Source: Venturia oleaginea (Eukaryota; Ascomycota; Dothideomycetes; Venturiales; Venturiaceae). From it: a stretch of 64,000 nucleotides of DNA. The DNA lies in the NCBI GenBank assembly GCA_013176395.1, contig JABMLP010000006.1, forward strand, positions 496,001 to 560,000, given 5' to 3'. Within the stretch, counting starts at the first letter, position 1; each line of letters begins with the position of its first letter. The notes below the pieces were generated by a model, which was given only the letters and a program-made list of their open reading frames with translations, did no database searches and had not been told where the DNA came from. Both the position numbers and the translations under genes were made by a program. This document shows positions 3,309 to 63,897 of the stretch, piece by piece.

Positions 3309-3313
3309 AAAAA
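3309..3313 (-). terminator. RNA polymerase III T5 terminator of tRNA-Pro(CGG)
   Basis: Five T residues on the minus strand start 5 nt after the discriminator base of the tRNA. A second T4 run lies at 3301-3304. Confidence 0.8.
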
Positions 3314-3400
3314 GGCTAGGGCCGAACCGGGATTTGAACCCGGGGCCTCCTGCACATCTGATATTCAGCAAGGCTGAAGGGAAAAGTAACCCGAAGCAGG

Positions 3401-3458
3401 CTAACTTTGGTCAGCCAGGAGGATATATAAAGGCTGCGCTGCTGACTTCGAAACTCAC
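3401..3458 (-). other. Non-canonical tRNA intron at position 26/27
   Basis: It is 58 nt, begins GTGAGT and ends GTTAG. A CTGAC branch-like box lies about 12 nt before the 3' end. It separates the D-arm exon from the anticodon stem. These are the signals of this genome's mRNA introns. The AGG proline tRNA elsewhere in the window lacks it. Confidence 0.8.
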
Positions 3459-3468
3459 AATCATACCA

Positions 3469-3524
3469 CTGGAGCATTATTAACCTCAAGTTGTATGCAG
3501 TGCGAGATTTTGAAGACGGCTTAC
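3469..3524 (-). other. Non-canonical D-loop tRNA intron (15/16)
   Basis: It is 56 nt, begins GTAAGCC and ends TAATAATGCTCCAG. It sits after G15, before the TGG that supplies the conserved G18-G19. It shares its position, first six bases and last seven bases with the D-loop intron of the second proline tRNA at 51401-51449. Confidence 0.85.
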
Positions 3525-3539
3525 CTAGACCATTCGGCC

Positions 3540-4945: not shown

Positions 4946-6052
4946 ACGTGTTTTACCATTCACTTGGCCGCCCCACTCACTTGGCCACCCAACCAAAAAG
5001 TCTAATCCCTTCGTACAATTATCGCGATAATGTCAACACCAACCCCCAGATCGGCTTGCAAAGAGGCTAGATTACTTCTTGCGAAGCAGATCTTTCAAAC
5101 GAATCCAAATTTAAGTCAACGTCAAATCTCAGCGTCGTACGATATTCCTCGATCTACACTTCAGTCTCGTCTTCAAGGTGGTAAACCACGAAGCGAATCT
5201 AACCACCAAAAGAGAAAGTTACAAATACATGAAGAGCAGGCTCTGGTTCAGTGGATCCTAGACCTTGATCGACGAGGATTTCCGCCCCAAATTATCGACG
5301 TACGACGAATGGCAAACGCTTTACTCGAAAAGCGCGGTACGAATCCTCCACCGTCATTAGTCGGGAAGAACTGGGTATCCCGCTTCATCAACGCTCAGCC
5401 GGAGCTTTGTACGAAGTGGAATCGTAAGTTCCATTCACAGCGTGCAAAATGCGAAGATCCAGCGACAATCAACGCGTGGTTTCAGCGTGTTGAAGAGACG
5501 CCCTCACCACCAGGTACACCCCATGGAGTAGCGCCACAGTGGACGTCAGAAACTCCTCGTACGATAGCTCAGCTTGAGCAGCAGGCTCAGCTCGTCCGAA
5601 ATTTTCTTCATCGCCAATCTCAGAGCCCAAGTAGTCAAGCAATCGGTCAACTCATCAAAGGATGTCAAGTCGCAATGAATTCAGCAGTAATACTTGCAGA
5701 AGAGAATAGGAAGCTTCGTACAGAGAACCAACGACGAAAACAGAAGCAACAGTATCGTAGACGATATATTGCATATGGAGGCGTTTTACAAGCTCAACAG
5801 GGTCAGTTCTTAGTCGAGGGATGCGAAAATAGCTCTAGAGATAGTGTTCAAGATCAGGAAGTCGTCGTACGACAGCGAGCATTACCAACATGTAGTGGCT
5901 GCGGTATTCAAGGTCATAAGATTAATCGATGCCCAAATACGTAAGAATGTATTGTTAGAATTATTTTAATAAAAGCTGTATTGGTGGGAGGTTTACCGCA
6001 CGATGACTTGAGATTTAGTGGTTGGGGTGGCCAAGTGAGTGGTGAAACACGT
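4946..6052 (+). mobile_element. Fot1/pogo-family internal-deletion derivative
   Basis: Terminal inverted repeats start ACGTGTTTTACCATTCACTT on the left. The right end reads ACGTGTTTCACCACTCACTT on the opposite strand. A subterminal CACTTGGCC is repeated inside. A TA follows the right end; the base pair before the left end is no longer TA. Length is about 1.1 kb. Its single ORF lacks the DDE catalytic core, so the element should be non-autonomous. Confidence 0.8.
5030..5944 (+). CDS. pogo transposase derivative: DNA-binding domain plus zinc knuckle, no DDE domain
   Basis: A single uninterrupted 304-aa frame. Residues about 10-60 form a psq-type helix-turn-helix (SQRQISASYDIPRSTLQSRL). Residues about 65-145 form a CENP-B-type DNA-binding domain (EEQALVQWILDLDRRGFPP, GKNWVSRFI). 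Right after NAWFQRVEE, where transposases continue into the DDE core, the protein jumps to the C-terminal segment. That segment has a basic coiled coil (about 215-245) and a CCHC knuckle, CSGCGIQGHKINRC. The deletion keeps the frame. By family knowledge it could bind the element's termini without cutting them; whether it is expressed is unknown. Confidence 0.8.
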   Translation: MSTPTPRSACKEARLLLAKQIFQTNPNLSQRQISASYDIPRSTLQSRLQGGKPRSESNHQKRKLQIHEEQALVQWILDLDRRGFPPQIIDVRRMANALLEKRGTNPPPSLVGKNWVSRFINAQPELCTKWNRKFHSQRAKCEDPATINAWFQRVEETPSPPGTPHGVAPQWTSETPRTIAQLEQQAQLVRNFLHRQSQSPSSQAIGQLIKGCQVAMNSAVILAEENRKLRTENQRRKQKQQYRRRYIAYGGVLQAQQGQFLVEGCENSSRDSVQDQEVVVRQRALPTCSGCGIQGHKINRCPNT

Positions 6053-30313: not shown

Positions 30314-31993
30314 ATGTCGCTCCGTTTACCATTCAGAACCAACAAGATACCCAAATACAATCCAGCTCAAACGAACTTCCGATATCACTCTAAACGAACT
30401 ATGGCTTCAATTCAAGCTGCCCAAGATTTCCTGACCTTCGTCGATGCTTCTCCAACACCCTTTCATGCTGTTCATTCTGCCAAAGAGAAGCTCGAGAAGG
30501 CAGGATTCAAACACATCAAGGTTAGTCAACATATCTTATACCGACAGAGTTTGGTATTTAACAGGCAGTAGGAACGCGACCCATGGTCGTCCACCCTCCA
30601 ACCAGGCAGTAAATACTACCTTACACGAAATGGATCCACCCTCGTCGCCTTCGCTATTGGAGAGAAGTGGAAGTCTGGAAACCCGCTTGCCATGATTGGC
30701 GCTCATACCGACTCTTGCACCTTCCGCATCAAACCTAACTCCAAGAGACAGTCCGATGGATTCATACAAGTTGGTGTTGAGGCCTATGGAGGCGGACTAT
30801 GGCATACGTGGTTTGATCGTGATCTCTCTTTGGCAGGACGCGTCATTGTCAAGACGAAGGATGGCAGTTTTGAGAGCAGGTTGGTCAAGGTCGAGCGACC
30901 GATTTTGAGGATTCCGACTCTGGCGATCCACTTGGAGAGACAGGATAACTTCCAGCCAAACAAGGAGACACAGATGTTCCCAATTGCTGGATTGGTAGCA
31001 GCAGAGCTCAACCGGACTGGAGAGACCGAGGCGGATCAGGCTGCCAAAAAGCTGGCAGAAACTACGATCAGCGAGGAGACCACTTCATACGAACCCATGA
31101 AGCTGGTCACCGAACGCCATCACCCATACATCGTCGAAATCCTCGCAAAAGAAGCCAAATGCGCACCATCCGAGATCCAAGACTTCGAAATCGTCCTCTA
31201 CGACACTCAAAAAGCAGCGTTGGGAGGCCTTAACGACGAATTCATATACTCCGCCCGCCTAGATAACCTCGGGATGACCTATTGCGCGACTCAATCCCTC
31301 ATCGAGTCCCTCGTCTCCCCTTCCGCGCTGAAGGACGACCCAACAATCCGCCTAATCGCCCTCTTCGACCACGAAGAAATTGGCTCCCGAACAGCCCAAG
31401 GCGCAGACTCAAATATGCTTCCAGCGGTTATTCGCCGCTTGAGCGTCTTCCAACCAAGCTCAACCACCGACTCAGACGCGTCATACGAACATGTGGGTGA
31501 AGAAGGAAGCACTGCTTACGAGCAGACATTGTCAAAATCATTCCTCATCTCTGCAGATATGGCACACTCGGTTCACCCGAACTACCCAGGAAAATACGAA
31601 GCAACTCACAGGCCAGAAATGAACAAAGGCACCGTCATCAAAATCAACGCAAACGCTCGTTACGCCACGAACTCTCCCGGCATTGTACTCCTCCAAGAAT
31701 GTGCGCGCCGAGCAAAAGCGGGATCCTATCCTGCCAGCGCAGCATCAAAGTCATCCTCCGGGGTTCCACTTCAGTTGTTTGTTGTGCGGAATGACTCATC
31801 TTGTGGGTCGACCATTGGTCCGATGCTTTCGGCAGCCTTGGGAGCGCGGACACTCGATTTGGGAAACCCGCAATTGAGTATGCATAGTATTCGTGAGACG
31901 GGCGGAACGCATGATGTAGAGTATGCTGTGAATTTATTCCACAGCTTCTTTGAGCATTTTGGGGAATTAGAGAGCAAGTTTTTGATAGATTAG
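30314..31993 (+). CDS. Aspartyl aminopeptidase, M18 family
   Basis: Two exons: 30314-30520 and 30572-31993, 542 aa; intron 51 nt. Family M18 metallopeptidases form dodecamers and remove N-terminal Asp/Glu. The metal and catalytic motifs are all visible: GAHTDS (about residue 130), SARLDNLGM (about 310), FDHEEIGS (about 345) and DMAHSVHPNY (about 410). A substrate-domain motif, GGLWHTWFDRDL, is also present. The first ATG adds a 29-residue basic, Arg/Lys-rich and acid-free leader that could send the protein to mitochondria. The second ATG at 30401 (MASIQAAQDFL) gives the usual cytosolic or vacuolar form. It is most like the DNPEP/Ape4 group; I do not assign the yeast orthologue. Confidence 0.93.
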
Positions 31994-55238: not shown

Positions 55239-58200
55239 TCAGACAGCCAGACGTCCGAATTGTTGCTCCAGCTCTCTTGCGTGAGTGACGCCTTCCACAG
55301 CACGATGATTCTGTCCGCCGATCTGAGTGCCGCACTGCGGACAACGCGCTTGTTCCATGGGCATACCGCATTCTCCGATGGTAAAAGGGTGTCCATTGGT
55401 GCAGTAGTACTACTAATTGTTAGAAAATGGTCAACATGACGGGAAAAGGCAGAACCATACCCAATGTCCAGTTCCACGGAATTCAGTCGCCATAGCAGCT
55501 AGAACCTCCTTCATCTCATTGCTAGTGACTGGATCATAGAAAGTGCCGTTCTTCAACATCTTTTCGATGGCCTCAAGCTCGGTGTGGATGGCGCGTGTCT
55601 GGTGTTTGTAGGTCTCGGAAAGCTGAATTGCTCTATCCATATGATCGAGGGCTAAGAGATACTTGGAATTTGCCCGTTGATCCTCCGAATCTAGAAACTG
55701 GCGCTCCAATGCGGTATACTGAGCGTAGAACATGTGGCCCTCAACCTCCTGGAGGCGGTTGGATGAAGCGTTTGCCATAGCGATTAGCTGCTCGCAAGAT
55801 TGCTTGTTTTCTGAAAAGCCAAATGCGAAGTATCCGTGTTGGTCATTCGTAGAAGCGTACTGGCATAGATTGATGACATCAGAGAGTGTGACGAGGTCGG
55901 TGCGGAGGAGTAGCGCCATCGCCAGGACTGAAGCTCTTGTCTGTAGAAGATTGTCGCCCGAACTGAGATCCGAATTGACACCTTCACGACGAAGGCGCGG
56001 GTTCTGAGTCAGCGTGAGCACTCGCTTGAACGGCTGCTCTTCTATGCTGACCATAGAAGCATAACGAAAGACATCCATGCGCAACTTCAGCAATTCCCTG
56101 TATCTTGAGCCAGGAACCGACCACAATGCTTGAGCTTGGTCTTGTATACTTCCAGGAAGGACAAAGCCGTTGATGGAAAGTGCCTGGATAGCCTTTCCGT
56201 CCTCTTTCTCTGGGAGCGCGTCCTGTTCAGTCTGGAGTGCCTTTGCAAGAGGAATATACTGAGCGTTGGACCAGACGATGAAGCGCTTGGTGGCTTCGTC
56301 GAGCATAGCTCTCCTGATGAGACGTCCATAACGTCCGATGGATCGAAGCGAGCCGCGACATGTTGCACAGCGCTTGATCTCGTCAATTGAGAATGGGACG
56401 GATAGCGTCTGATTGATTCCAATAATCTTGTCATCGTCGTCCATTTCGTAGTACTGGCTCATTGACATCTGAGCGTCCATTGACTGTGTAGTTAAGAAGT
56501 GTCCACAGGGCGGAAAGATACAAGGATAGAGATTCAAATCAGTCTCATCGTAGGTTGACATTTCGATAAAATCAACGATAGCGGATTTGACATCGTCATC
56601 AGAGGTACAAATTTGGCAGTATTTGACTGGCGGACAAATCTCGCCGCAGATGGATACGCCTGGGATTCATTAGCACTTGGTTCAATGTAACATTACGATG
56701 GGTCTTCAATTCTCCTCCAAACAGTTGAGCGTCTGCATTTGAAGATGACTGTGAAGTTCTGGCAATGCCACAAAATTGGACTACCAGAATTCCAAAAATA
56801 TCGGTCTTCAACTGAGAAATTCTTTTGAAGATGTAGCTTCAACTTCGAGTAGACAGGAAGGAACAAGAATTAGAGATTAGAAGGAAACTCACATTGATGT
56901 CCGCAAGGTAGAAGCTTGGTGCAACGCTTCTCGCAAGGCAGATGGTCGCACGGGGCCGAACAAGGCATATTGCAGCGAGAATGTTCACAACCAGAGGCAC
57001 AATTCTCATCCGCGCAAGGACGACATGGTTCGGAACATGTCTTACCACAACGAGAGTGGCTGCATGAGTTAGTACATGAGCTTGTACAAGGAGGGCAGGG
57101 TTCGTCTCCATGGCAAGCCTGGTTGCAAGAATGGCTGCAATTCGTGAATGGACGGCCGCAGATTTGTTTGCATGCGCCGTGCTTGGTGTCGCAGAGGACG
57201 CTGTTGCCATCAACGATTCTTGTTGTGCAATGATGACATTGGTTCCTGCAGGGATGGCCACAAGGAAGATTGGAACTACATGTGGCTTTGCAAGAATACA
57301 TGGCGCTGTCCACGTCCTCATGGCAATGTACCTCGATGATGTGTCCGCATCCCGGAATGCTTCGTTTGACTTTGACCTTACACTGAACCAGATCGAGGTC
57401 CTGTGACTGCCAGCAGGGCAAGATTTTGGCACTATGACCACAAGGGAGCATTCTGGTTGAGTCTGAAACGTTGACCTGGCACCTTGCCAAGCATTTGTCA
57501 CCACAGTGCTTGGAGCAAGGATGATCGCATCCCTTCAGAGGACGTGGGCAAGGTTCCATGCAGTAGACCGCGTCGTGGAGGACTTGAGAGTGACATCTGG
57601 CACCACAGCTATGACCGCAGTGCAAGCGGTCATTGCACTTCAGACCACAGCCACCCTCTGGAGAGAACTTTGAGAAATCGTCGGGCGTTGTGATGGAGAT
57701 TGGAGTATCTGGATGGCGAGGGCACTGCAGTTCAAGGCTAGTACCAAGATTACCATCCTCCGTCAGCATGGCTGTGATCTCCGCCCACATTGCCACCTTC
57801 GCACTTGCTGATTGTGAATTCCCGATGATGACCATGCCGTGTTTTGCTCGACTAAGCGCAACATTGATACGATTCGAAGTTCCCAGAAAGCCGACTTTAT
57901 TCTGAGCGTTGCTTCGTACGAGGGACAAGATGATGATCTTTGCCTCCTCTCCCTGGAAGTTGTCCACAGTAGAAAGCCGCAAAGCTCGCAATAGGGTGGT
58001 CTGAGATATTGACGGTGCCGCAAGTTGACCCTCGCCCATCGCTTCCTCAATTCCAGCTTTGCCCAGATCTGCGACATCTCTGTCACTCAAGACAATCGCA
58101 AACGCGCTGCCCAAAGCATTTCGTAGACGCTGCAATTGGCCGAGATAGGGAGTCAATACGGCAATGTCTTCCGACCGATAAGCTCCCTGATTCACAATGT

Positions 58201-61200
58201 GTCGGACCAAAGCTGCAGTCATCTGAACTTCGTAGGCATTAAAATGCGACGTCTGGTTTGCATCGGCTTTGTCACCTCCTTCCGGCTTGGTATGGTCGAG
58301 CCAGAAGAGTCGCTTTCGTAAACCAATAATCTCTGGATATTCGTTCACATTCGAGGCATCCTTCAACGCTGGATACATGGTCTCACGGATCAACCGCGAG
58401 ATGGAAGGATGCATGCGACGCTGTGTCTCCAAAGTGCTGTAAGGAAGGCGTTGCATTCCAGGGCCTGGATGGACAAGCCGCTCGAATAGAGAAATGTCGA
58501 GAGAGTATTGTTTTCCTTGCGGGCTATCCGAGCGAAGTTCGTAGTTCTGGACTTGGGGTCGGAGCTGTTGATGGTCTCCAATTAGGACAGCATGCTCTAC
58601 TGATGGCAAAAAGGTCGTCAACAGGTGAGCTTCTAAAACCTCGCCAGCTTCTTCGCATATCAAAACTTTCGATCTCAATTTGCGCAGCATTGCCAAGTTG
58701 CGTGCCAGACCCGAAGTCGTGAGACCGATGATATTTGCGGCACGTAGACATCTCAAGTCTGTCTCTTCTTGGATGGCATCGAGTCGGCCCTTGACGTTGA
58801 CATGCGCTGTCATGGCATCAAGCAGCTTTTGCTCCAAATCCTCCTGGAATTGTGTTTCCCACGCATGGTAAATCTTGTACCGCTCGGCTTTTGACATGTC
58901 AACCAGACGGCAGCCAGTAAGATTCTTCACACTCCTGGGCGTAAGAGAACTTGGTGGGCCTCGTGCAAGCCATGTGCCAAAGACGTGTTGCGGAGCCTTG
59001 GTTCGCTTGTAAACGACCTCCTGAAATCCATCTTCGTCCACGCTTTGCTTAAACAGCTCGTTATGATGATGGGGCCACCGAAGCAAGAGAAAATCTTTCA
59101 GAGCCGTCGGGGAATGCGAGTCGTTGATGGTGTTCAGGATTTTGAACTGGGGATCCACCTCTTTCTCCTTCTCCTTGCGTAGTCGACCGAAGGACGATTT
59201 CTCATGCTTGGTTCGCTGCTCGGTCCTCGCGACAGATCGCAGATTGCAATCTTGCAGCACCTCGGACTTACATCCTGATCCGATTCGGATGATCTGTTTA
59301 ACACCAGCGTGGTGCAGATGTTCAAGAAGCTGATCCAAAGCGTGGTTGGTGTAGGTGACTACGATGATTGGGCCTATATCGTTACGTCCTAGAAATTGCC
59401 ATCAGTATACTTGCATAGTATTGTCATTTGTAAATTGAGATCGATATCGTTGAACTACCGGCGGCTTTGAGAAATGACATTGTAAGATATTTATCGATAT
59501 CGATCTCAAATTAGCACAGCTTTGTCCGAACATACCTTTCGGACCTGTTTGAGGCACGCCACCTATCATCACTTCTTTGTTGGCCAGAAGCACCTTGATC
59601 AAAGCAACTCCAACGAAGGACTTGCCAGTACCTGGAGGACCTTGAATGAGCGCTAGACTACGGCCTAAAGAGTCAACTAGAGCCTTGGTTTGGGCGTCAT
59701 CCAAGAGCGAGCCAGTCTGCAATTTTTGGGCATTGAAGGGCTGCCCAGGTGTGAGGAACAGGTCGCTGCTGTCAGTCATGAGACATTTGAGATTGAATCG
59801 AAAGCCACGCTTTTGCGTATATGCAGGAGGGGTGATCTGAACCTGCTCGTCATCGACGACAGGAGATGGGACCAACATATCCTTCAAGGGAAGATCGCTA
59901 GTCTGTTTCATTTGCTGCAGTGCAAGCAGTGTGGGCTTGAAAGCGGGAAGCAAGATACCGGGAAATTCGACCAGTAATTTAGTCGATCGACCCGCTTGAC
60001 GCCGGCAAAGTCGAAGAAGCTTTTGGATATTCTCCGCGGTTGGATCCTCCAAAACGAGGGAGACATATCCTCTCTCCTTCGAAGAGTACAATGCGCGAAA
60101 CTGCTTCTCTGCTTTCACGTCATCGGGCGATGGGCGACCGTGGTATTTGCAGCCCTTCGGTTTGCTACCCTGACCAACGACACAGAAGAGAACGGTGCCC
60201 GTAGCTCCCGCGACTTCAGCAAGACAGACCAAGGCATCAGGATCCAGTCGTTTCGATTGCAGCCACCAATTCTTCCGGGCTAATTCGCCGTCAGACATAA
60301 TGTCATCGCTAGATCGAGCTGGCTGATCGAAAGATATTTCAATCTTGAAGCCGCAGCGGGAATCTGGCATAAGGCGTTCGATTGCGAGATTGTTGTAAGA
60401 GTAGGTCTTGGTTCCGTTCCACGAATGGTTAGAGACACGGCGCTGGAGCTTCTCCATCTCTGCTTGAACTGTATCACGAAGCTGCCCTATTGTGTCTTCG
60501 CGCAAAAGTCTGAAGTGGCGATCAAAGACACCGTCAAGTCCTTGCACGTAATTTTCGTCAACCTTCAGATGAGGAAGGTATTCGGCCCGTCTACTGGTGA
60601 TCTCGTCAAAGGTGGGCATGATTTCGATCTGAGTGATGTCTCCAAAATCGTTGTTATGTCGACCGCCTGCAGGCTCTCGCTGCATGACGAAAGAAGCTTT
60701 GGCAGCTTTTGCACGCTGAGTTGGTATGGCAGCTGGTAATTCTGATCCAAGTCCGAGACGATATTGGACGCGTGCGAGCAACATGGTGGCTTCATGAAGG
60801 TCTGGCTGCTCCTGAGAGTCATTGCGCTCTTTGATCAATTCGTTGAAAGAATGAGCAATTGGGTGGAGGGTTTTATTGACTTGGGACTCTGTCTTAGTGT
60901 CGATAATCTTGGATAGAAGTTGGAGAGATACAGTGAAGTATGTATCGATCTCTTGAGAATCGGCGGGAGTGCCGTTGAGGCCTTTGATAACCAGGTCGTA
61001 GAGTCGGACAAGTCGCTGGCCCTCAACACCATATAGGAAGCCACATATGACTGCGACAGGCTCCTCCATGAGTAAAGAGGAAAAAATCTCAAGATGCGTC
61101 AAGACGTTGAACAGAGGAATGATTTGTTCTCTAAGTACGACCGGTGGCGAAATCGTACCAAAAGGATATTGCTGGTTGGCCAGTTGTGCGACGCGTGTTA

Positions 61201-61579
61201 AGCCGCCCTCGGTGGCCAAAGACTTGATGACATCTTGTCGCACACCAGCTTCGCTATCAATGAGCTGCTGTGCGGTTTGAAAGAACTTGGAAAGTTTGTC
61301 GATGGTGAGGAAGGGCTCTGAGCCCTTCAACTTGAAGCTCCAGGCACGCAATTTGGTCTCTGATAATGTTAAAGGTGCAGCTACTCGATCTTGCTGGATG
61401 TTCGAGGAAGTCTGGCCTTGCGGGCCATCATGGCTGTAATGGCATTTGTCGCCGAATCGACATTTCTGTCCGCTGGCCCAGGCGTGACAGGGTCTCCTGT
61501 AAAAGTTTAGTCCATGTCTACCAGATAATGTAATGATGCTGAAGAATAGCAGAATGACTCACTTCTTGGAGCCCGCCAT
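55239..61579 (-). CDS. ZNFX1/Hrr1-type superfamily 1 RNA helicase with CCCH and NFX1 zinc fingers
   Basis: Five exons: 61579-61563, 61496-59536, 59388-56893, 56659-55461 and 55409-55239, 1947 aa; phases agree. The order of domains is as follows. First is a CCCH finger near residue 10 (C-x8-C-x5-C-x3-H). The SF1 helicase has Walker A LIQGPPGTGKSFVG (about 605), YTNHALDQLLEHL, motif II CEEAGEVLEAH, GDHQQLRPQ, VDNFQGEEAKIIILS and ALSRAKHGMVIIGN. A row of NFX1-type cysteine fingers follows (CGHSCGARCH, CGHPCRNQC, CGKTCSEPC and others), then a C-terminal CGTQIGGQNH RZ-type finger. EEAG rather than DEAG is usual for ZNFX1. S. pombe Hrr1 works with the RNA-directed RNA polymerase complex in RNAi heterochromatin; a similar small-RNA role is inferred. 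Introns are 66, 147, 233 and 51 nt. Confidence 0.93.
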
Positions 61580-62044
61580 TACGAGCTGACGCTGGGTGCG
61601 CGTGCTGTAGTCAGGCAGGTTGCTGAACAGGAATACGAAGGCTGGGTAGCGCGGGGATGGAAGTAAGAGATGTACAAACTATGAAGCTTGATGGTTAAGC
61701 CAGAGAGACGGTGAGTTGCAAGATCGCAATACAAAGAGAGTTGATGAGGATCTGGACCAAGTGAGTTGAGGTGTTGATCGATGGTCAGCGAAGGATGTAG
61801 AAGTATTCCTGTTTGATATCACGCGGGCACGACTCAACAACACCGACGAGAAAACAGTTTTCCAAATTGTTTGTGCCTTGTCTGTCGAAAGTCGCCGACA
61901 GGTGTGGAAGTTTGCCTAATGGTCAACACCGTCAACAAATGCAAACCCGCCTAGCAGAACGACAGGCACAACCACAACGTTTGCAATCAGTCAGCCTCAA
62001 TGGTTCCTGAAATGTATCTACTAGGCTGAATCTCTCCTCTTCTA
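61580..62044. other. Promoter of the helicase gene and transposon flank
   Basis: Only a short unsupported frame. It ends at the TA target of the pogo element. Confidence 0.4.
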
Positions 62045-63897
62045 TAACGTATTCCACCATCGAGTGGGTCAACCCATCGAGCGGGTCAGTTTATGCCAAG
62101 ACCAGCTGCTCCCTTATCAACACAATATGTCTCAACAACAAAACGCGCAATCATCTAACAGAGAAGGCAGAATCCAGCTTGCCCTTTCTGCCTACAATAC
62201 CCACCAATTCCGAAGCCTCCGGCGCGCTGCTGAGGCGTTTGATATACCTCCTTCAACATTAACTAGGCGATATAACGGAATTACGTATCGCCTAGATACT
62301 CGCAACGCCCGACACAAGCTCACTACGACTGAAGAGCAGACAATTGTCCAATACATCCTCGACCTCGATTCGCGAGGATTCGCGCCCCGGCTGTGTGAGG
62401 TAGCAGATATGGCGGATAAACTACTGGGTGTACCCGGTGGAGAGCCAGTAGGGAAAAACTGGGCTGAGAGGTTCATAACGCGCTCAGATGAACTCAAGAT
62501 GGCCTTCAATCGAGCTAAGGATAGGCAGAGGATACTACAGGAAGATCCAGAGGTTATTGGCGCGTGGTTTAAGCTCGTTACAGACACCAAGGCAAAGTAC
62601 GGTATCCACGACGAGGATACGCACAACTTTGACGAGATTGGCTTCCAGATGGGTGTTATTGGGTCAATGAAGGTCGTCACAGCTTCTGAAAGACGTACAC
62701 GGCCTAATTTAATCCAGCCAGGCGATCGCGAGTGGGTTACAGTTATCCAGAGCATCTGCGCCGCCGGGTATGCGACCCCGCCATTCATTATCTACAAAGG
62801 ACGCGTTCATATCTCTGCGTGGTATGAGTAGGCAGATATACCACGGAATTGGAAGCTCTCGGTCTCTGAGAACGGCTGGACAAATAATGCGCTTGGTCTT
62901 GAGTGGTTGAAGCACTTTAACGCGTATACAAAGGCGCGGCAGGTGGGGGTATACAGGCTGCTTATTTTGGACGGCCATGAGAGCCATCTCAGCCAGGATT
63001 TCAAGGACTACTGCCTCGAAAACAAGATTATAACCCTCTGCATGCCATCGCACTCGTCGCATATACTCCAGCCCCTTGACGTGGTCTGCTTCTCGCCGTT
63101 GAAGCGCAAGTACTCCCAACGCATCCGGGACTTGGCACGCCGACGCGTGTACCATATCAACAAGGAAGGCTTTCTCACTGCCTTCAAAGACGCGTTTTTC
63201 GACGTGTTTACGAAAGAGAACTGTCAAAAGGCTTTTGAGGCAGTAGGGCTAGTCCCTATCGACGCGCAGGTGGTGTTGGATCGCCTTGAAGTACGGCTAC
63301 GAACCCCGCCAGAAACCCATCTCCCAGAAACGCCGTGGCAGTCCAAGACTCCAAGTAATACTTATGAATTTGGATCCCAATCCAAGCTCGTAAGCGAGTC
63401 TTTTACTCGGTCACCAGTTACTGCGCAGGCAGGCTTTTCCCAGCTTGTTAAGGGCGCTGAATTGATGCTACACCAAAACGCTCTGCTTGTTGCGCGTAAC
63501 CGCGAGCTTGAAGAGCAATTAGCAGTAACAACGAACCGAAAATTGCGCAAAAGGAAGTGGATCCAGCAAGGTGGTACTATGGAGTATGGGACTGCAGCAG
63601 CGCAGGTAGCTGCAGAGGCGTCTATAGCGCCTCAGGGATCAAAGAAGGCTCGTGGTAGTGGTGGTCAAGAAACAGCCCGACCAACTCAACGGCGCTGTAG
63701 GAACTGCGGCGCAGCTGGGCATAATGCGCGAACTTGTAAAAAAGATATCAAGATATCTTCTGAATCAGATAGCAGCACGACGGACTTAGAATCTATTGTT
63801 GATAGCGATGAAATTGAAGAGTCGTAACTTAAGTTGGTCGTGCCAAGCCTTTTTGACCCGCTCGATGGGTTGACCCGCTCGATGGTGGAATACGTTA
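62045..63897 (+). mobile_element. Near full-length Fot1/pogo transposon
   Basis: It is 1853 bp including the flanking TA at both ends. The terminal inverted repeat ACGTATTCCACCATCGAG is perfect at both ends and is followed by GGGT/ACCC-rich subterminal repeats containing the CGAGCGGGTCA motif. It encodes one transposase frame broken by one stop codon. Confidence 0.9.
62127..63827 (+). pseudogene. pogo-type DDD transposase with one in-frame stop
   Basis: The frame runs from MSQQQNAQSSNREGR (62127) to 63827, about 566 codons, with a single TAG at 62829-62831. Residues about 10-55 are a psq helix-turn-helix, and 60-145 a CENP-B-type domain (EEQTIVQYILDLDSRGFAP, GKNWAERFI). The catalytic aspartates are all visible: HNFDEIGF, LLILDGHESHLS and LQPLDVVCFSPLKRKY. 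The tail has a coiled coil and the zinc knuckle CRNCGAAGHNARTC, then an acidic end. The stop falls between the first and second catalytic Asp, in a region reading HISAWYE-stop-ADIPRNW. A CAG-to-TAG transition, as in repeat-induced point mutation or deamination, would explain it. The rest of the frame is intact, so inactivation is recent. Confidence 0.9.

Follow-up and report, generated by a model that had tools for sequence, protein, structure and literature searches.

A fungal tRNA-Pro(CGG) gene with two putative spliceosomal introns and its interrupted relatives across the genome

The tRNA-Pro(CGG) locus and its surroundings

The window analyzed here is a stretch of 64,000 nucleotides (C56:496001-560000) from a 46.08-Mb assembly of 61 contigs, of which C56 spans 1.9 Mb. 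On its minus strand, positions 3539-3319 contain a tRNA-Pro(CGG) gene consisting of four exons and three introns. An earlier note on this DNA had proposed the gene together with the coordinates of its three introns, and all of these hold on the minus strand. The same applies to the proposed 72-nt product of three removals, which ARAGORN calls as tRNA-Pro(cgg) and which has acceptor, anticodon, and T stems of 7, 5, and 5 bp, C73, and the conserved loop bases.

All parts of the gene lie on the minus strand. Exon 1 (3525..3539) comprises tRNA positions 1-15, with the 5' strands of the acceptor and D stems and the first half of the A box. Intron 1 (3469..3524; 56 nt, GTAAGC...CCAG) is inserted at D-loop site 15/16, where it splits the A box, and exhibits U2-type signals. 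Exon 2 (3459..3468; TGGTATGATT) continues through the D loop and stem up to position 26, and intron 2 (3401..3458; 58 nt, GTGAGT...TTAG), again with U2-type signals, follows at site 26/27, so that two of the three introns are indeed non-canonically placed, as had been claimed. Exon 3 (3390..3400) provides the 5' strand of the anticodon stem and the loop, with the anticodon CGG at 3393-3391, and is separated by intron 3 (3355..3389, equivalently 3388-3354; 35 nt) at the canonical site 37/38 from exon 4 (3319..3354), which supplies the 3' strand of the anticodon stem, the variable loop, the T arm, the 3' strand of the acceptor stem, and the discriminator C73. An intact B box (GGTTCAAATCC) is located at 3330..3340, and a TTTTT run at 3309..3313, 5 nt past position 73, represents a putative Pol III terminator. 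No long open frame overlaps the gene.

The GT-AG ends reported for introns 1 and 2 (GTAAGC...CAG and GTGAGT...TAG) are present and proved to be the key clue to their nature. Both donors fit a GTRNGY-like pattern, and putative branch sites, recognized by motif alone, are found in intron 1 (TTAAT, 3479..3483; 11 nt of intron after its branch A at 3480) and in intron 2 (CTGAC, 3410..3414; 10 nt after its branch A at 3411), the former being the weaker motif. Intron 3 is an ordinary 37/38 intron of the tRNA endonuclease type, and its CCC pairs with GGG of the anticodon loop in the predicted fold.

The unspliced gene was detected neither by ARAGORN with default settings nor by Rfam at the gathering score, because its D arm is in pieces, and ARAGORN misread it as SeC when introns of up to 200 nt were allowed. 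After removal of introns 1 and 2 only, ARAGORN read the anticodon loop in a wrong frame and reported an intron-containing Met(cat); our own structure score selects CGG. This score reached 31.0 for the gene after the two GT-AG removals and did not exceed 26.0 for a null set of 36 non-tRNA B-box places, 6 of which lacked a candidate start and hence went unscored (L105, which overlaps L106, was omitted). Within the same set, 1 of 3 true tRNA genes (L103) scored just 22.4. The tRNA structure of the window gene is thus not a product of chance.

Elsewhere in the window, an aspartyl aminopeptidase (30572-31993) is encoded that shares 95% identity with a protein of Venturia inaequalis, so that the DNA belongs to a species of Venturia or a close relative. 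The mRNA intron of this gene (30521-30571), which may be compared with introns 1 and 2, has 51 nt and reads GTTAGT...TTAAC...TAG. Two pieces of Tc5/pogo-like transposases were found at 5006-5944 (Pfam HTH_Tnp_Tc5) and 62025-63827 (DDE_1), both with a C-terminal motif resembling a zinc knuckle by eye. Opposite the first of these frames, 5567-5615 on the minus strand matches snoRNA sR39 below threshold (27.4 bits, gathering 50), probably by chance. Large open frames at 55431-61558 (minus strand) resemble, on inspection by eye, an NFX1-type zinc-finger helicase; they are distributed over several frames, which may reflect introns or decay.

Interrupted tRNA and U6 genes in the genome

Searching the genome with the Rfam tRNA model (RF00005) yielded 62 matches. 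Of these, 45 lie on contigs other than C38 and C58, whose tRNAs (15 + 2 of the 62 rows) were taken as organellar on content and set aside. C58 is a small contig of 18,945 bp with AT-rich, mitochondrial-looking tRNAs, one Cys and two Arg(tcg) on opposite strands. Among the 45 nuclear matches, at least 7 read with GT-AG introns, and many isoacceptors are left without a gene. Patterns combining a B box with a T-run exposed hidden tRNA genes, with 24 rows compared to 3 in the control and 43 compared to 9, counts that include duplicate rows for one place. The bare B-box pattern matched 328 times in the genome and 254 times in the control; from 100 of these matches that were listed, 40 loci were read, yielding 3 tRNA genes (L103, L121, L140), while the other loci read looked like chance. 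When yeast-like tRNAs were compared with the genome by BLAST, the window gene alone matched. Split-gene patterns run against collections of viral contigs (two patterns) and prokaryotic contigs (one pattern) gave 0 matches, as expected there.

From candidate loci, 33 tRNA genes were picked by reading and parsed, and for 29 of these the best reading contains one or two GT-AG introns, with a total of 40; the set is not exhaustive, and 29/33 does not represent a genome-wide rate. Besides Pro, the isotypes concerned are Ala, Leu, Ser, Glu, Gly, and Arg, and one gene has the anticodon TAT. Introns occur at 15/16 and neighboring D-loop sites, at 9/10, 13/14, 22/23, and 26/27, from 50/51 to 53/54, and within the T loop, so that in some genes the A box or the B box is split. 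Their length ranges from 47 to 89 nt (median 52 nt), and a CTRAY motif is present in 33, G at position 5 in 38, and a YAG end in 37 of the 40.

Rows for L059 (Arg, 3' end not found) and L092 (Ser, mismatched acceptor) were left out, as were L084, L090, L098, L103, and L148, which were not parsed. Doubtful genes that were kept comprise L154 (one acceptor mismatch; called Lys by ARAGORN), L164 (one acceptor mismatch), L151 (AAG in our parse, TAA according to ARAGORN), L002 (its D-loop intron can be read as GT-AG in two ways), and L158, for which we read the anticodon AAC and ARAGORN reports Ile, and which probably has a further intron. For L094, the parse that fits its paralogue L088 was used. 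L158 (C59:100152) is itself a Leu-like gene, seemingly with more than two non-canonical introns. Furthermore, two tRNA-like copies at C19:646319 (L054) and C60:820814 (L055) are nearly identical in both sequence and flanks, the former lying approximately 0.25 kb from its contig end, and in an initiator-Met-like gene at C15:296563 (L049), the T-arm/acceptor segment is in part directly duplicated.

Several tests addressed the splicing signals. An intron-neutral pattern, TGGTCTAG-N40-70-TGGTATGATT, which consists of exon 1 and exon 2 sequence around the site of intron 1 and names no splice site, matched 7 times in the genome and 0 times in the reversed control, and all 7 inserts start with GT and end with AG. 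When all 256 pairs of terminal dinucleotides were compared, GT-AG restored 26 of the 29 genes to a structure score of at least 28 (3 genes scored below 28 with GT-AG), followed by GT-CA with 15 of 29 and a median over pairs of 5. With boundaries placed by structure alone, after first removing the other intron of a gene at its GT-AG ends, GT-AG was among the optimal solutions for 24 of 32 introns, compared to approximately 1.0 expected; in the remaining 8, it was absent from the strictly optimal boundaries. Moreover, 27 of these 32 introns contain a CTRAY branch motif, compared to a mean of 7.4 and a maximum of 15 in 200 shuffles. It should be noted that the latter three tests are partly circular, since the genes had been chosen by reading, whereas the intron-neutral pattern is free of this circularity.

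Interruption extends to the U6 snRNA genes. All 7 matches above the cut-off (L068-L074: C23:188483, C16:524005, C34:504708, C12:932536, C12:1178091, C36:59841, and C2:1122156) are interrupted, by 8 introns of which 7 are GT-AG and one is GC-AG. Five introns, including the GC-AG intron, share a single 5' site and three are internal; L072 and L074 have only an internal intron, at a common site. For 5S rRNA, no intron was found in any of the 33 matches over the cut-off.

A proposed maturation route and its alternatives

The window gene is very probably a functional nuclear tRNA-Pro(CGG) gene in which introns 1 and 2 are spliceosomal, of U2 type, and intron 3 is a normal tRNA intron, a reading based on sequence analysis. 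In the route that we propose, Pol III would transcribe the gene, which has an intact B box and a T-run terminator, the nuclear spliceosome would then remove introns 1 and 2, which allows the cloverleaf to form, and tRNA endonuclease and ligase would subsequently remove intron 3, with end processing as the last step. Two points speak for the spliceosome acting first: the body of the tRNA is known to be what the tRNA endonuclease reads, and in predicted folds the anticodon stem beside intron 3 forms once intron 2 is out.

A first alternative concerns the polymerase. Since intron 1 splits the A box, binding of TFIIIC should weaken, and the unspliced gene has no A box by our own consensus. Moreover, it is established that spliceosomes normally work on Pol II transcripts. 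Introns 1 and 2 could therefore be spliceosomal in a transcript made by Pol II or by both polymerases, an alternative that we regard as unlikely, though not negligible. Against it stand the intact B box of the window gene and the T-runs: 26 of 28 genes have TTTT in the 45 nt that follow them, compared to 5 of 28 upstream, a difference that is partly biased, as some of the loci were found via a T-run pattern. U6, which is normally a Pol III product, is likewise interrupted in this genome. In addition, TGCTCCAGTGG, made up of the 3' end of intron 1 and exon 2, agrees by eye with the A-box consensus at 10 of 11 positions and is a possible replacement A box.

A second alternative treats the window gene as a pseudogene that has decayed or been interrupted, its inserts being random insertions. 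Some isoacceptors do have paralogues with an intact D arm or without a GT-AG intron (L141, L015, L034). Paralogues lacking an insert delineate the introns. Out of 25 comparisons, 18 gave exact junctions, and 15 of these permit GT-AG; the other 3 (matches of 10-11 nt) do not, and 7 comparisons were without an exact junction. The Pro(TGG) gene L141, which lacks introns 1 and 2, shares 19 identical nucleotides across each of the two junctions of the window gene, and the Ser gene L051 corresponds to its intronless paralogue L015 (81 nt) plus a single GT-AG insert of 53 nt.

Random decay is difficult to reconcile with stems and conserved bases that are complete once the gene is spliced, or with inserts that have common signals and sites across genes. 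Two further Pro(TGG) genes, L163 and L165, are interrupted by GT-AG introns at both non-canonical sites of the window gene, 15/16 and 26/27. Between these two genes, exon identity is 100% along the entire tRNA, whereas the introns have diverged to 67% and 68% similarity, which compares to a mean of 56% and a maximum of 67% for random 52-mers in the same aligner. Selection on the spliced product explains this pattern best; gene conversion confined to the short exons is less likely. Altogether, 8 Pro genes were found, 7 of them with GT-AG introns. An intact CGG copy, which the earlier note had suggested looking for, did not emerge: the sole other copy found (L002, C1:112387...) is also interrupted by a GT-AG intron in the D loop, in a search that a copy with a T-arm intron might escape. 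For Pro(AGG), the only gene found, L164, likewise has a GT-AG intron in the D loop, although its acceptor mismatch means that it may not be the main AGG copy. A D-loop intron is present in all 4 Leu(AAG) genes found, and a genome search for an intact Leu(AAG) D/anticodon-arm pattern with up to 3 mismatches retrieved only a Leu(CAG) gene; such searches may miss diverged or doubly split copies. Taken together, a pseudogene is very improbable.

Third, introns 1 and 2 might be of the non-canonical bulge-helix-bulge (BHB) type that occurs in Cyanidioschyzon merolae and archaea and be cut out by the tRNA splicing endonuclease. Comparable sites in the D, anticodon, and T arms are on record in PMC9602550 and PMC4090602, where non-canonical tRNA introns of C. 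merolae and archaea are described as having BHB motifs for the tRNA endonuclease. Accordingly, the parallel to archaeal and algal multi-intron genes that had been drawn for this locus holds for intron positions only, the introns there having BHB motifs and introns 1 and 2 here spliceosomal signals. Intron 2 forms 8 of 12 BHB pairs (4/4 central, 0/4 inner, 4/4 outer) and intron 1 forms 6 of 12; 37% of same-junction shuffles of both window introns also attain 8 of 12. Across the 40 introns, mean pairing is 6.92 of 12 compared to 6.16 at random places, but the excess resides in the exonic outer helix (2.60 compared to 1.94 at random) and persists with the intron shuffled (2.57). Shuffling of introns leaves a total of 6.56, with the central part at 2.15 compared to 2.07 shuffled and the inner part at 2.17 compared to 1.91 shuffled. 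None of the 40 introns reaches 10 of 12 pairs, on a scale for which no known BHB intron served as positive control. Nor are GT-AG ends, a fixed spacing of the branch motif, or a median length of 52 nt features of BHB introns, so that this origin is very improbable.

Finally, an origin of the introns as copies of a spreading introner-like element is hardly credible, since, despite similar intron lengths in many unrelated tRNA genes, all-against-all BLAST of 32 introns returned nothing beyond one 13-nt match and a search with the whole pre-tRNA, in which very common words were skipped, retrieved no further genomic copy of introns 1 or 2.

Implications and comparison with known systems

If introns 1 and 2 are spliceosomal, as we favor, the consequences would reach beyond the window. 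With introns in dozens of tRNA genes, among them all the Leu(AAG) and Pro(CGG) genes that were found, the spliceosome would probably be an obligate tRNA-maturation machine in this lineage. The decoding of several codons would then need first the spliceosome and subsequently endonuclease and ligase to act on Pol III transcripts, and translation capacity would be coupled to mRNA splicing. Such a role would overturn the rule that the tRNA endonuclease alone deals with introns in nuclear tRNAs. It also raises the questions of how precursors as short as these Pol III products can be processed by a spliceosome, how a gene whose internal promoter is split can still be transcribed, and by what means spliceosomal introns enter non-coding genes. 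How and when such introns were gained is directly testable, since this genome contains Pro paralogues that have 0, 1, or 2 of them at the same sites. Furthermore, many of the genes described here escape ARAGORN and the Rfam tRNA model or are misread by them, so that fungal tRNA sets may be under-annotated.

Our search of the open-access literature retrieved no description of nuclear tRNA genes with spliceosomal introns, and the genes described here would represent a known class of intron in a class of host for which we found none reported. Compared with canonical introns of nuclear pre-tRNAs at 37/38, intron 3 of the window gene is alike, whereas introns 1 and 2 lie elsewhere and carry spliceosomal signals. 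Spliceosomal introns also occur in the rDNA of lichen-forming ascomycetes, which are similar in that mRNA-type introns reside in a structured RNA gene, but the host there is a Pol I-transcribed rRNA rather than a tRNA.

With the genes of C. merolae, of nucleomorphs, and of archaea (PMC9602550, PMC4090602), the present genes share the presence of several introns per tRNA gene in the D, anticodon, and T arms. The tRNA inserts of the Guillardia nucleomorph are given there as 3-24 nt long, with an unknown mode of removal. Unlike the introns of C. merolae and archaea, those described here combine GT-AG ends, CTRAY motifs, and lengths of 47-89 nt with no intron-dependent enrichment of BHB pairing. 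Precedents are the fungal U6 and U3 genes, for which spliceosomal introns are on record in PMC5832005, where these two are termed the sole small structured RNAs that are often interrupted by introns. As in those genes, spliceosomal signals are found here within small structured RNA genes, and the side-by-side occurrence of intron-bearing and intronless paralogues resembles that described for U3 in the same paper. In contrast to U6 and U3 as presented there, a tRNA host must fold, be processed at its ends, and often be spliced by the tRNA endonuclease as well.
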